Assembly (NCBI GenBank): GCA_922989275.2 | Contig: OV277860.1 | Span: forward strand, 47,624,400-47,688,399 | DNA: 64,000 bases | Reading direction: 5' to 3' | Source: Gari tellinella | Taxonomy: Eukaryota; Mollusca; Bivalvia; Cardiida; Psammobiidae | Notes under the pieces: model-generated | Seen by the model: only the letters and a program-made list of their open reading frames with translations | Told to the model about the DNA's origin: nothing | The model's database searches: none | Made by a program: the position numbers and the translations under genes | In this document: piece by piece, positions 42,301 through 51,300 of the stretch | Layout of the letters: the number at the start of each line of letters is the position of its first letter | How positions within the stretch are numbered: position 1 is the stretch's first letter

Positions 42301-45300
42301 TATAAAAATTTAAACAAGGCAAACAATTAATAAATAAGAGAATAAAAATATTTTTAAAACATGTGTAAATTTCCAAATGAATAAATATTTGAAGAAAATA
42401 AAAATACCAACCTTGAGGTTTTGCTTACGTATTAGATAAACACAATAAAAAAAATCACATTATATTTTTTTGGTAAACTTTCCACTTTCATATAAAAATG
42501 TATATAGTAATGACCTATAACCACCATAAAAAATAAAATTAACAGGTTATTTGATTTCTTATCAGAATCAAAACTGCTTTAAGCTTTAACTAGGATAAAC
42601 TCCACTGAATTAGCAAAAAAAACCCAAATATTTCAGAGTTTCACTTATAATTGTCTATTTTAAGAAGTGTTTTGGTCACAATTAATTTAGCAAACAACAT
42701 TTCTTCAGCTCAACAAGTTTTAAAAATATATACAGTAAAACCTCGCTATTACGACCACTAAAACGAATGCTTATTGATTGTTTAATAGAGAGGTGACAGT
42801 TTAAAGCAATGTGACAGTGAAACAGAAAGCTCCTAAAGGAGCTTTCTGCTTCATTGTCACATTGCTTTAAGCGGTCACCTACTGTAAACACCCTAATAAT
42901 TTACGTAATTTAGTGGTCGTAATAGAGGGGTTGTACTGTATGTGGAAGCAGACAATATTTCACCCTTAACTGTCATCTGCTTAAACCCTTTCCACCCAAA
43001 GAAGCGCCTTTTAGAGCATTTAATTTATTCCTCCACTGAAGAAAATATTTCAAATTTATACAGACATTAATATGTATTATTTGGATATAAAATCAAAATA
43101 ATAATTATGATATGAACAATTTTCATTATTCTAGCTGATGGTAGATTTAAACAGGCTGAAATTAGAGCAGAATGTGCCTTATGGCATTCTGCTTTTCTTT
43201 CAACCTGCTTTAAGTTGTCACTTGTCTTCAATTCTAGAAACAGGCTATGGGGTAAAGGGTTTAACAAATGCCATCCTCTTTTAATTCTTTAATTCAAATT
43301 TGAGGTAAATTGACTAAGTTAATATATTAAAAAGTTTCAAACCATTTTGATCGAGATCAGATGTGTTTTGCAGCATATGATCAGGGTCCAAAACAGTTTG
43401 AAAAAAACAATGGTTATCAATTACTTAAATGTTATAAATCTTTATAACTTAAAATTATTGAATATCATAAATTTTAATAATTTATTTGAAACTGAAAAAT
43501 TATTAAATATTAAAAGAACAAAACATCTTCATTTACATTTGAAACTTTAGAATAACAACTAAAAAACCTGCCGTTTAAGAAATTATTGAAAGTATATAAA
43601 ATTGTAATAAATGTGTGATAAACTTAAGCCCCCTGCTATTATCATTCAATTTAAGATTTTCTGCAATATTCTTATTTCTTTAATCATGTGAAGAAGAGAT
43701 AAAAGGTTTAATTTTGTAAACAAAATTATTCTAATCAATTACAGGAAACAGTAGCCCCAGACCCTATCCCCTGGTAGCCATTGGTTGGGGTCCAAATCAG
43801 TAGCAATCATCTCCCAATTTGCAATCAACAAAGTGTCAATTAGCCATATCCACAGCCCCTAGTCCCCTAATCAGCAGGGTCCAACACCAAGTGTAGGCCA
43901 ATACTCAACCAAGTGTGACAGACTGAGAGATTTTCACTCATATCTCACCAGGTAGGTCACAGTTTGTCACCCAATTAACAGCCTAATCAACAGGAAAACA
44001 ACACAGACTAATTGACAGTTTCCACTTCCCCTGTTAGTTCACTGAGATGAAACTCAGATTTTGTCACTTGTCACTAAAACAACTCACATCCACTTTTGCA
44101 TATAAACCCCCCGAAAATAGCAAACTGCATCATTCAATGAATGGTCACTTTGGGGACTGAACTACTGCACAAAAATTACCATTGAACAAGACATAGATAT
44201 TGTAGGACTAAAGAAATGCATAAAGTTCAAGAGCTTTATACATAACTTGAGTCCTGCATAACTTTGTTATAAAGGCTGACATACTTTTTTTGTGAAAATT
44301 TTTTTGTGTAGAATTATAGGATACAGTAAAAGACAGGTGCCGGCTTTAAGCAAGGGGAGGGTGAAAAAGAAAGCTCCTACAGGAGCTTTCTGTTTCACTC
44401 TCCCCTTGCTTTAAGCTGCCACCTGCTCTAAACACAATTTTATTGTTTATATCAGAAATAATAGAAATAGGTAACAAATTTCTGTCGGCAGGTACTTGGT
44501 TGTTGCTAGTTTGTATTGAAACACTAGCACAATCCTGTGCTTGCAGGTATGAGACTGAAAATCTTCATCTCTTCAAGGATAGAGAAGGAAAAGAAGAACT
44601 GTTTGTGCAGGCACTTGGTTGATGCTAGTTGTCTTTTAATACTAGCACAATCCTGTGCTTGCATTGACAAGTTTATGAAATCTACAAGCCATACAACTAA
44701 TCTGGAGGATATATACTGTAGGATTTACAAGGGCTCAAGATAGAAAAATATCATTTCTCACTAGTTTTATCAAATCCTATATTGTTACTACTCATTTCAG
44801 TCGTCTCAAAGAGATGATTCTTATGAGTAGCGTCACCATAGGGTTTATTGTAGCAATAAAGATTTTAGTTTTCATTTTCTCGATTCAGCTTCAAATCCCA
44901 TGGTGTTACTACTGATTAGAATTGTCTCAAAGAGACGATTCTAATGAGTAGTGACACCATAGGGTTTAATGCAGAAATAAAGATTTTAACTTTTTGAAAC
45001 ACCCATTGCCTGGAAATCTGTACAAGCCACACTACAACATCTGGAGGATATGGGATTGTATACTGGTTGTCTTATGTGGGCACTTGGTTGAGGCTAGTTT
45101 TAGTAACTTACTAGCACAATCCTGTGCTTGCATGAACCATTACAGGAAATCTACACTGCTTTGCATCCACACATGGAATAGGAGGTATATTCTGATGCTA
45201 GGAAAGCTTAACATGTGACTGATTAATGTAGAAAAACATTAATGCAGAAAGCTCTTTTGTGAGCTGCTGCATTACTGTTATCCTGCATTAACCCATTACC

Positions 45301-48300: not shown

Positions 48301-51300
48301 TCTGTCCTTTTTACAAATTTTACCGGATTTGGAGCACATTTTTTTTGTGGCATTTGCCCTACCTTTACAATATTAAAAGCACTGTCATTACTTCCGATTC
48401 ATTTTCTTTCGTTCATTGGTTCTCGACAAATCGGGCTGTCATAATTACATGATAACGCTTGAATGTCTGCGAGAAAAACCTCATAATAAATGCAAATGAT
48501 AATTATTCCAAGTAAACCACTGGAAAGCATGAAATTAAGCAATTTATTTGTATATTTCTGTGTTACTTTCACCTTGCTTTAACCCATTCCCCAATAAATA
48601 CGTCTCTTAATCATTCCTCCACTAAAAAAAATATTAGCAGTTCTAGCAGATGGTAGCTTAAAGCAGGTTGAAAGTAAAGCAGAATGTGCCTATGGGCACA
48701 TTCTGCTTCTCTTTCAACCTGCTTTAAGTAGTCACCTGTCTTCAAAACAAGAAACAGGCTATGGGGTAAAGGGTTAAACTGCAATACATTAACCCTTTGA
48801 ACCCTAGTCCCGCATATTGGCGTCCTTTTCAAACAGTGTATATGTGAACAGTACACTTGTAATGTGCAAACAGTGAAGACCCAGACCAGTGGGCTCCGAA
48901 AGGAGCCCTCTGTTCAGGGTCTTCACTGTTTGTCATAATGCCAAACATTGACAAAAACAACCCCAGAAATGGACTTGACTAAAATGGAAACTGGAATTGT
49001 CCATTTAAAGTTTCAGAGAGGATGGATACAACTGGAAGCCAGATGTAGATCTAGATACAGCCACTTGGTTTTTCCTGACATCTTGTATGTGCTTGTTGGT
49101 ATCATTATACTAGCACTATTAGATGCCGGGCCATACATGGCAATTTACAACAATGTATGAGGGGCCACATCCACAGGAGAAATCAGTTGCCACAAGCAAA
49201 TGGGCTTATCAGTTCTGTAAAATCACTGAATAAATTCTTTAACCCATTACTCCATAGCCTATTTCTAGTGTTCTAGAATGTGCCCTAAGGCGCATTCTGC
49301 TTTACTTTCAGCGTGCTTTAAGCTTATTCATAACTTTATGAATTACGGCGTGAAAAGGCGTATTTATGGGGTGATGGGTTAATTCACTGGATCCAACTGA
49401 AAATGCTTGCCCAAAATAGAACAGCCACTTGTTTTTCCTATCATCTTGTATGTGCTTGTTTGCTACTTTATACTAGCACTATAATATGCTGGGGGATACA
49501 TGGCGAATTACAACAAGAGATGACAAATGACCACTACAGCTACCACAAGATCGACAATTGCTGGACAAGGCATAACAACTAAAACTCTTGAATTTTTCAT
49601 TCTTTTTACAACTGTCTGTCCTTTTTAACTCTTATCTCCCTGAAACTTCAAATGGACAATTCCAGTTTCCATTTTAGTCTAGTCCATTTCTGACTTTTAA
49701 GGGTTGTTTTTGTCAATGTTTGGCACTGTGACAAACAGTGAAGACCCTGATCAGAGGGCTCCATTCGTAGCCCTCTGATCAGGGTCTTCACTGTTTGCAT
49801 AGGACAAGTGTACTATTCACATGTACACTGTTTGAAAAGCATATATGCGGGACTAGGGTTCAAAGAGTTAAAGCAAATTTTTACAAATTTTACCTGGTTT
49901 TGAGTACATTTTTTTGTGTTTAGCCCTACCGTGACAATATTAAAGGCACTGTCATTCATTTTCTTACGTTAATTTCTGTATGAATTAAAGCGTAAAAAGG
50001 CGATTTATGGGGTGATGGGTTAATTCACTGGATCCAATTGATGAAAATGCGTGCCCAAAATAGAACAGCCACTTGTTTTTCCTATCATCTTGTATGTGCT
50101 TGTTGGCTACTCTATACTAGCACTATAATATGCTGGGGGATACATGGCGAATTACAACAAGAGATGACAAATGACCACTACAGCTACCACAAGATCGACA
50201 ATTGCTGGACAAGGCATATCAACTAAAACTCTTGAATTTTTCATGCTTTTTACAACTGTCTGTCCTTTTTAAAGCAAATTTTTACAAATCTTATCTGGTT
50301 TGGAGCACATTTTTTGTGTTTGGCCCTACCGTGACAATATTAAAAGCACTGTCATTTTCTTACATTCATTTCTGTATGAATTAAAGCGTGAAAAGGCGTA
50401 TTTATGGGGTGATGGGTTAATTCACTGGATCCAATTGATGAAAATGCGTGCCCAAAATAGAACAGCCACTTGTTTTTCCTATCATCTTGTATGTGCTTGT
50501 TTGCTACTTTATACTAGCACTATAATATGCTGGGGGATACATGGCGAATTACAACAAGAGATGACAAATGACCACTACAGCTACCACAAGATCGACAATT
50601 GCTGGACAGGGCATATAAACTAAAAAAATTCATTCTTTTTACAACTTTTTTTTTACAAATTTTACAAAAATTGTCCTTTTTAAAGCAAATTTTTACAAAT
50701 TTTACCGGGTTTGGAGCACATTTTTTTGTGGCATTTGCCCTACCGTGACAATATTAAAAGCACTGTCATTACTTCTGATTCATTTTCTTCCCTTCATTGG
50801 TTCTTGACAAATTGGGCTGTCATAATTACATGATAACACTCGAATGTCTGCGAGAAAAACCTCATAATAAATGCAAATGATAATCATTACAGTAAACCAC
50901 TGGAAAGCATGAAATTAAGCAATTTATTTGGATATTTCTGTGTTACCTCTTAATCCATTCCCCAATAAATACGTCTCTTATTCATTCCTCCACTAAAAAA
51001 AAATATTAGCATATGGTAGCTTAAAGCAGGTTGAAAGTAAAGCAGAATGTGCCTATGGGCACATTCTGCTTCACTTTCAACCAGCTTTAAGTAGTCAAAA
51101 CAAGAACCAGGCTAAGGGTTAAGGACACATATATGTGGTCACATATTTTCGAAACAGGCGTTAATGAGTTAATGCAATACAATATATCCCTTGCAGTGTT
51201 TTTGTAGTACTGGATTTATTTTATTACTGGATACCCTGAACTCCCTGGTCATAATGATAACAGTATTATAAGGTGCATGGAACAAACCAAAAGCCAAACA

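Follow-up and report, generated by a model that had tools for sequence, protein, structure and literature searches.

Several animals carry large embryonic microRNA clusters whose members share a seed, among them zebrafish miR-430, with more than 50 paralogues, and Drosophila mir-309~6 (PMC4691753). Tribolium has the mir-3851 and mir-3836 clusters and also a 40-gene X-linked cluster (PMC4691753). Such clusters of the maternal-to-zygotic transition are large and fast-evolving and, according to the accessible text of the same paper, are thought to be convergent in fish and insects. In the oyster, too, microRNAs lie in clusters (PMC4138081), and there are several isoforms of mir-184 (PMC7488030).

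The locus described here, from the bivalve Gari, is probably a gene-silencing cluster that has expanded strongly; it has no match to the RNA families with which we compared it. We read it, with a probability of roughly 0.9, as a candidate polycistronic animal microRNA cluster of 18 hairpins, 17 of them intact. With miR-430, mir-309~6 and the Tribolium clusters, as the accessible text portrays them, it would have in common many tandem-duplicated hairpins, seed-sharing in the 3p arm and rapid local turnover; unlike them, it has another seed and lies antisense in the intron of a von Willebrand C (VWC)-repeat gene. Clustering and multiple isoforms per family, both already known in a bivalve, are likenesses to the oyster, whereas the two novel-microRNA clusters of PMC4138081 contain different mature sequences, with no repeated seed in the main text. 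A limited survey of accessible literature text found no molluscan cluster of the seed-sharing miR-430 or mir-309 kind. A further independent case, if this proves to be one, would test the recurrence of the clustered solution to the maternal-to-zygotic transition.

Eighteen hairpins within a probable giant intron

The window, by which we mean the whole 64-kb stretch of DNA analysed, contains the exact string ACTAGCAC 18 times, always on the plus strand and all inside 6 kb (44523-50520), against a mean of 1.89 (about 1.9 expected) and a maximum of 6 in 100 shuffles. Folding gives an imperfect hairpin at every one of these sites, with the site opening the 3' arm. The earlier note had claimed 18 hairpins in 6 kb with a common 3' arm start, and both this claim and the fold of each interval, with the arm on the 3' side, were borne out in all 18. 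Tested one hairpin at a time, between 0 and 6 of 300 dinucleotide shuffles matched the fold. The plus strand is the more stable in 17 of the 18, the exception being H5, where the minus-strand MFE is lower. Type III MFEs are modest (-16.8 to -19.9), and H16 and H18 fold differently once longer flanks are included. In a microRNA precursor, two arms of about 22 nt are expected to form at least some 16 pairs, and the hairpin set does so: 17-20 in 17 of 18, and 15 in H12. Precursors are also expected to have a loop of at least 8 nt, as all 18 do, the distance from the top of the arm to A1 being 8-16 nt; the note had given a loop range of 10-16 nt.

All the hairpins lie on the plus strand. Type I comprises H1 (44487..44549, 3p arm 44523-44545), H2 (44605..44667, arm 44641-44663), H3 (45074..45136, arm 45110-45132), H9 (46531..46593, arm 46567-46589), H10 (46689..46751, arm 46725-46747), H11 (47222..47284, arm 47258-47280) and H12 (47351..47413, arm 47387-47409), together with a cut copy, H7 (46311..46373). 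Type II comprises H4 (45766..45828, 3p arm from 45802), H5 (45919..45981, from 45955), H6 (46179..46241, from 46215) and its duplicate H8 (46399..46461, from 46435). Type III comprises H13 (47825..47887, 3p arm from 47861), H14 (48114..48176, from 48150), the H13 duplicate H15 (49073..49135, from 49109), the H14 duplicate H16 (49436..49498, from 49472), H17 (50080..50142, from 50116) and H18 (50477..50539, from 50513). A profile, R1, was built from 15 of the 18 hairpins; with it the plus strands of all 18 reach 55.9-70.6 bits (H1, 70.3 bits) and the minus strands 34.4 bits or less. Fold, R1 and the CNNC motif discussed below support H1-H6 and H9-H14, with the strand comparison in addition for H5; duplication, fold and R1 support H7; duplication and R1 support H8 and H15-H18.

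Exons of a von Willebrand C-repeat gene flank the cluster on both sides, about 27 kb apart. These VWC-like exons, at 60.5-54.4 kb and 27.2-6.8 kb, are on the minus strand, and tblastn with two exons as queries, both of them VWC ORFs by Pfam, gave minus-strand VWC-like matches on both sides of the gap and none between (E up to 0.01). From these flanking matches we infer a giant minus-strand intron, 27198..54445, that holds the whole cluster, in agreement with the earlier note; since the gene's exons are on the minus strand, the hairpins run antisense to it. A protein search with one VWC exon found no homologue.

One conserved arm and a CNNC motif

Exactly seven hairpins, H1-H3 and H9-H12, have the same 23-nt type I arm; they are the seven that the earlier note had named. 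The edges of this identity are sharp: positions 1-23 agree in seven of seven copies and the bases just outside either edge in five of seven. Mean pairwise identity among the type I copies is 1.00 in the 3p arm, 0.74 in the 5p arm and 0.37 in the loop, so conservation of a single arm, as had been proposed, holds, and the 3p arm is more conserved than the 5p arm, loop and flanks, as in microRNAs. That the loops are unrelated is consistent with their 37% identity. The flanks are mostly unrelated as well, except that downstream those of H1-H3 look alike by eye, and for this reason the copies are not fully independent.

Type I pairing is retained in 106 of 112 paired cells, the changes being mostly to or from G:U. 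The 14 distinct rows pair in 92.4% of their cells (23-44% in slid controls) and have double changes in 28 cells (2-16 in the controls). Three of five covariation measures lie beyond every shuffle; shuffles reached the other two, in 68 of 500 for double-change pairs and in 30 of 500 for further pair types. The covariation, taken with the strand preference in 17 of 18 hairpins, marks the structure as maintained by selection on one strand.

CNNC is an animal Microprocessor signal. Here it starts 18-20 nt beyond a 22-nt arm in 17 of the 18 hairpins, H7 being the exception, and in 12 of 12 representatives (H7, H8 and H15-H18 set aside; at 19 in H1) against a background of 0.099, for a window that was picked after the data had been seen. 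The motif, helpful and not obligatory, is placed about 16-18 nt downstream of the cut in published work (accessible text of PMC9905709); in that window, counted from the 22-nt arm, it occurs in 9 of 18. Placement at 18-20 fits the published one only for an arm with its end about two bases further on, which would mean either a 23-24-nt product or a 22-mer starting UAGCAC, and the latter would break the common seed. The choice of 5' end at ACUAGCAC (the A, the preceding base or UAGCAC) decides whether the 18 share a seed.

The hairpins themselves and their local expansion were computed directly, as were the one-arm conservation, covariation, strand preference, CNNC placement and confinement of type I to this locus that, together with pairing-preserving change in the 5p arm, support the earlier note's view of these hairpins as microRNA precursors.

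Local duplication and competing explanations

The cluster was expanded by local duplication. A tandem duplication of 220 bp (46140-46359 and 46360-46579) lies within it, and at its junction stands H7, a type I copy that keeps to the common arm for 16 bases before diverging and has no CNNC in the 30 nt that follow; it is probably a dead copy, and in the H7/H9 pair 2 of 20 sites of the broken 3p arm differ. Duplication was recent in H6/H8, H13/H15 and H14/H16/H17/H18, whose flanks are also related, and inside the hairpin H17 differs from H16 at two loop bases and nowhere else. Summed over five of eight compared duplicate pairs, which partly share branches (the three omitted include H7/H9), 1 of 230 arm sites differ and 41 of 834 flank sites.

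Recent segmental duplication of part of the cluster, and the 42 near-perfect palindromes resembling hairpin elements that the window carries, are what one might expect if this were a family of hairpin transposons or of tandem repeats confined to the locus, folded by chance and with no small-RNA function. We consider that very unlikely. The palindromes are symmetric and spread throughout the window, whereas the hairpins are imperfect, stable on one strand in 17 of 18 cases and confined to 6 kb; their conservation is sharply bounded, covering one arm and leaving out loop and flanks, and in the five summed duplicate pairs the arms have changed less than the flanks. The earlier note had held that hundreds of genome-wide copies would count against a microRNA reading; in the 1.6-Gb genome, with up to three mismatches allowed, the type I arm has seven matches, all at this locus; on this count a transposon or MITE origin is rejected for type I.

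Many one-stranded hairpins in an intron could, we suppose, seed small RNAs of another sort, endo-siRNAs or piRNAs, but the short imperfect stems, the sharply bounded conserved arm and the CNNC at a set position suit Microprocessor products better than long-dsRNA or piRNA precursors, and we regard that origin as highly improbable. Hardly credible is that the copies are a series of coding exons or an element conserved as DNA and do not act as RNA. One frame is open across 87 nt in some copies and a 112-aa ORF spans H13, yet no frame stays open across all 18 copies, loop lengths differ by numbers that are not multiples of three, every type I arm position is fixed, third positions included, and the compensatory and G:U changes operate at the level of RNA. 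With no common open frame, and no Pfam match for the H13 ORF, coding exons are rejected.

Beyond the cluster, an R1 search of 200 kb of flanks gave nothing above 21.4 bits, and viral contigs scanned for exact 22-nt matches had none. The weak R1 matches in the flanks are L026:2899 (21.4 bits, plus), L021:9890 (14.5 bits, minus) and L022:3677, which scores on both strands; those in the window are at 53462 (13.8), 51188 (11.5) and 22855, the last in a symmetric palindrome.

Family relationships and proposed action

No Rfam family reached its gathering score, either in the window (4227 families) or in 14 of 20 flanking loci. None of 33 matches with E up to 1 in 43500-52500 falls on a hairpin, in a scan whose filters missed a match of H2 to mir-306. 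That match came from a lax scan of 221 bases (28.3 bits, E 0.00012; cut-off 52), which also gave H1 a match to mir-24 (24.3 bits, E 0.0017; cut-off 50). Both scores are about half of their cut-offs, and matches below cut-off are, by the tool's own account, mostly chance; over six laxer scans, five of them small and taking in H1, H2, H5, H9-H12 and H14, the mir-306 match remained the best to overlap a hairpin. A resemblance of the 5' arm of H11 to miR-12 found no support in one of the small scans.

An expansion of a known family that has since diverged strongly (for example MIR-29/285, miR-279 or mir-306) would be compatible with the microRNA reading and bears on origin only; we think it unlikely. 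In its favour are the two sub-threshold matches and two motifs. UAGCAC at the beginning of the 3p arm resembles the start of miR-29, and in both MIR-29/285 and the cluster it lies in the 3p arm just past the loop. MiR-29 has C after UAGCAC, and the MIR-29/285 seed is AGCACCA. In the cluster the next base is A or U in all 18 and never C, which speaks against membership; its conserved block also begins two bases earlier, and the 43500-52500 scan gave no Rfam overlap. The second motif is ACUAG, near the 5' end of the 3p arm in both the cluster and the miR-279 family, whose seed is GACUAG (accessible text of PMC4691753); the preceding base here is U or C in 18 of 18, never G, which speaks against membership as that text defines the seed.

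As a microRNA cluster, the locus would act as follows. A plus-strand transcript, antisense to the VWC-repeat gene, would be cut by Drosha/DGCR8, aided by an SRSF3-type CNNC signal, and then by Dicer; the 3' arm, approximately ACUAGCACAAUCCUGUGCUUGC in type I, would be loaded into Argonaute and would silence mRNAs with seed matches. Were the arm to start at the first conserved A, seed positions 2-8 would read CUAGCAC. Counted from that A, nucleotides 1-8 are constant in all 18 and the types diverge beyond them, so with such a start the whole cluster would act together, at high dose, on a single set of targets. By analogy, our guess would be a burst-type role, for example the clearing of maternal mRNA in early embryos. 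More tentatively still than the microRNA reading itself, and rather doubtfully, we suggest a lineage-specific cluster born in the giant intron and grown to 18 copies, in which purifying selection may have held the 8-nt seed region while three subtypes diversified elsewhere: an independent counterpart of the miR-430 and mir-309 embryo clusters.

In accessible literature text, searched for the type I arm and for parts of it, no paper contained the arm; as far as their accessible text goes, the papers matched by arm strings dealt with the unrelated topics of itaconic acid in E. coli, OCT4/SOX2, rocaglates and lung adenocarcinoma. The locus holds 13 distinct intact variants of one hairpin type, in which the start of the arm is constant and the 5' arm, loop and flanks have varied freely, and these make the rules of Drosha and CNNC recognition testable outside the usual model animals.

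The hairpin set and its growth

Across the 64 kb of the window we counted 18 copies of the motif ACTAGCAC, always on the plus strand (44523-50520); 100 shuffled sequences gave a mean of 1.89 and a maximum of 6. When 72-nt stretches were folded, all 18 gave an imperfect hairpin in which the motif opens the 3′ arm, and for each hairpin only 0-6 of 300 dinucleotide shuffles folded as well as the real one. Motif count and folding thus bear out the earlier note, which had described 18 imperfect hairpins (H1-H18, 44487-50539) with a common 3′ arm start, and its identical type I arm in H1-H3 and H9-H12 was found as described. 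By arm sequence the hairpins, all on the plus strand, fall into type I (those seven and the cut copy H7), type II (H4-H6, H8) and type III (H13-H18). The first eight arm bases are common to all three types, and distinct intact hairpins number 13.

Neighbouring hairpins lie 88-959 bp apart, inside the 10-kb rule of the cluster definition excerpted from PMC4138081. The cluster visibly grew by duplication: H6-H7 and H8-H9 form a 220-bp tandem copy, H13 and H15 are copies 1248 bp apart, and H14 and H16-H18 belong to a 248-bp repeat family. The arm of H7 (46311-46373) departs after 16 bases, with arm and flank replaced at the tandem-duplication junction and the Microprocessor signal CNNC lost; it shows the marks of a broken copy born at that junction.

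One-arm conservation and RNA structure

In type I, 23 bases of the 3′ arm are identical in 7/7 copies and conservation drops at both edges, mean identity being 74% in the 5′ arms and 37% in the loops. Pairing is kept in 106 of 112 paired cells, chiefly via C or T facing G and A or G facing T. Summed over five of the eight duplicate pairs compared (omitting H7/H9, with its broken arm and 2/20 differing, and two redundant pairs), 1 of 230 arm sites and 41 of 834 flank sites differ; the P value is rough because the pairs overlap in sequences. Across 12 representatives, only arm bases 1-8, 16-18 and 21 are invariant. Judging by these patterns, selection is acting on one arm.

CNNC starts 18-20 nt past the end of a 22-nt arm in 17 of the 18 hairpins (H7 is the exception) and in 12/12 representatives, against a three-base window background of 0.099. 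The excerpt of PMC9905709 places it at about 16-18 nt; at exactly 16-18 it is found in only 9/18, so an exact fit requires a product ending two bases later. The 5′ end can be read in two ways. We favour a start at ACUAGCAC because bases 1-8 are conserved; it would give a seed common to all 18 and a product of 23-24 nt. Less favoured is UAGCAC, which would give a 22-nt product with U first and a seed varying by type.

The plus-strand fold is the more stable in 17/18 hairpins, H5 excepted; a strand swap converts G:U pairs to mismatches. We read the hairpins as RNA, with the plus strand the likely one. Our covariation alignment held 15 hairpins in 14 distinct rows (H15, H16 and H18 were omitted as H13/H14 copies), with 92.4% of cells paired and 28 double-change cells. 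Sliding partners by 1-3 columns left 23-44% paired and 2-16 double-change cells, a control biased in the structure's favour since the alignment itself supplied the structure. Percentage paired, double-change cells and covariation score were each reached by 0/500 shuffles; the 8 pairs with double change were equalled or exceeded by 68/500 and the 17 further pair types by 30/500.

Identity and possible action

The hairpin features match Drosha/Dicer microRNA precursors; the earlier note had proposed animal microRNA precursors. The rival explanations considered, in which these are not precursors, have no account of one-arm conservation combined with a positioned CNNC. Rfam returned no family at cut-off in the window. 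In laxer scans its best sub-threshold match at a hairpin was mir-306 at H2 (44596-44674; 28.3 bits versus a cut-off of 52; E 0.00012 in a 221-base scan), a resemblance that seems to sit in the 5′ arm and is probably due to chance. Chosen sub-strings of the arm, searched in open full texts, turned up no paper containing it. The hairpins match neither the miR-29 seed nor the miR-279 seed, the latter as given in the excerpt of PMC4691753. On its sequence we read the cluster as a further animal microRNA cluster, with no Rfam match at cut-off and none in those full texts; its significance lies in its size, its seed-sharing and the natural variation among its hairpins.

One polycistronic transcript would supply a single guide RNA, or a few related ones, in many copies, which would act by dose on mRNAs bearing matching seed sites. 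Large multi-copy, seed-sharing clusters are implicated in maternal mRNA clearing in zebrafish, Drosophila and Tribolium (excerpt of PMC4691753); an early-embryo role here would be only an analogy.

The locus and its neighbours

Even with three mismatches, the type I arm is confined to this locus in the 1.6-Gb genome; the hundreds of genome-wide copies named earlier as a refutation are absent for this arm. With a covariance model trained on 15 of the hairpins, every one of the 18 scores between 55.9 and 70.6 bits. The model gave 39 matches at E up to 1, among which the next-best on the plus strand reaches 21.9 bits; in 200 kb of flanking sequence nothing exceeded 21.4 bits. Exons resembling those of a von Willebrand C-repeat (VWC) gene lie on the minus strand on both sides, at 60.5-54.4 kb and 27.2-6.8 kb, which would place the cluster antisense in an intron of up to 27 kb, in keeping with the giant intron first proposed. 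The cluster would then probably be driven by its own promoter; it could instead sit between two VWC genes. At 15244-17105, minus strand, an array of ~105-bp repeats, each encoding a partial VWC motif, looks as if one exon had been tandemly amplified.

Near-perfect palindromes of 52-102 bp occur at 42 places (431-62392), about 31 of which fall by eye into two families, TTAAAGCAGGCTGAAAGTAAAGCAGAAT... and CAAACAGTGAAGACCCTGATCAGAGGGCTCC...; they are probably hairpin-type non-autonomous elements. Some match Rfam microRNA families sub-threshold, on both strands. Between H2 and H3, at 44769-44970, lie two further palindromic stretches. They are inverted copies of each other at 74% and do not resemble the ACTAGCAC hairpins; by eye, palindromes like them also lie at 4571-4649 and 27370-27456.
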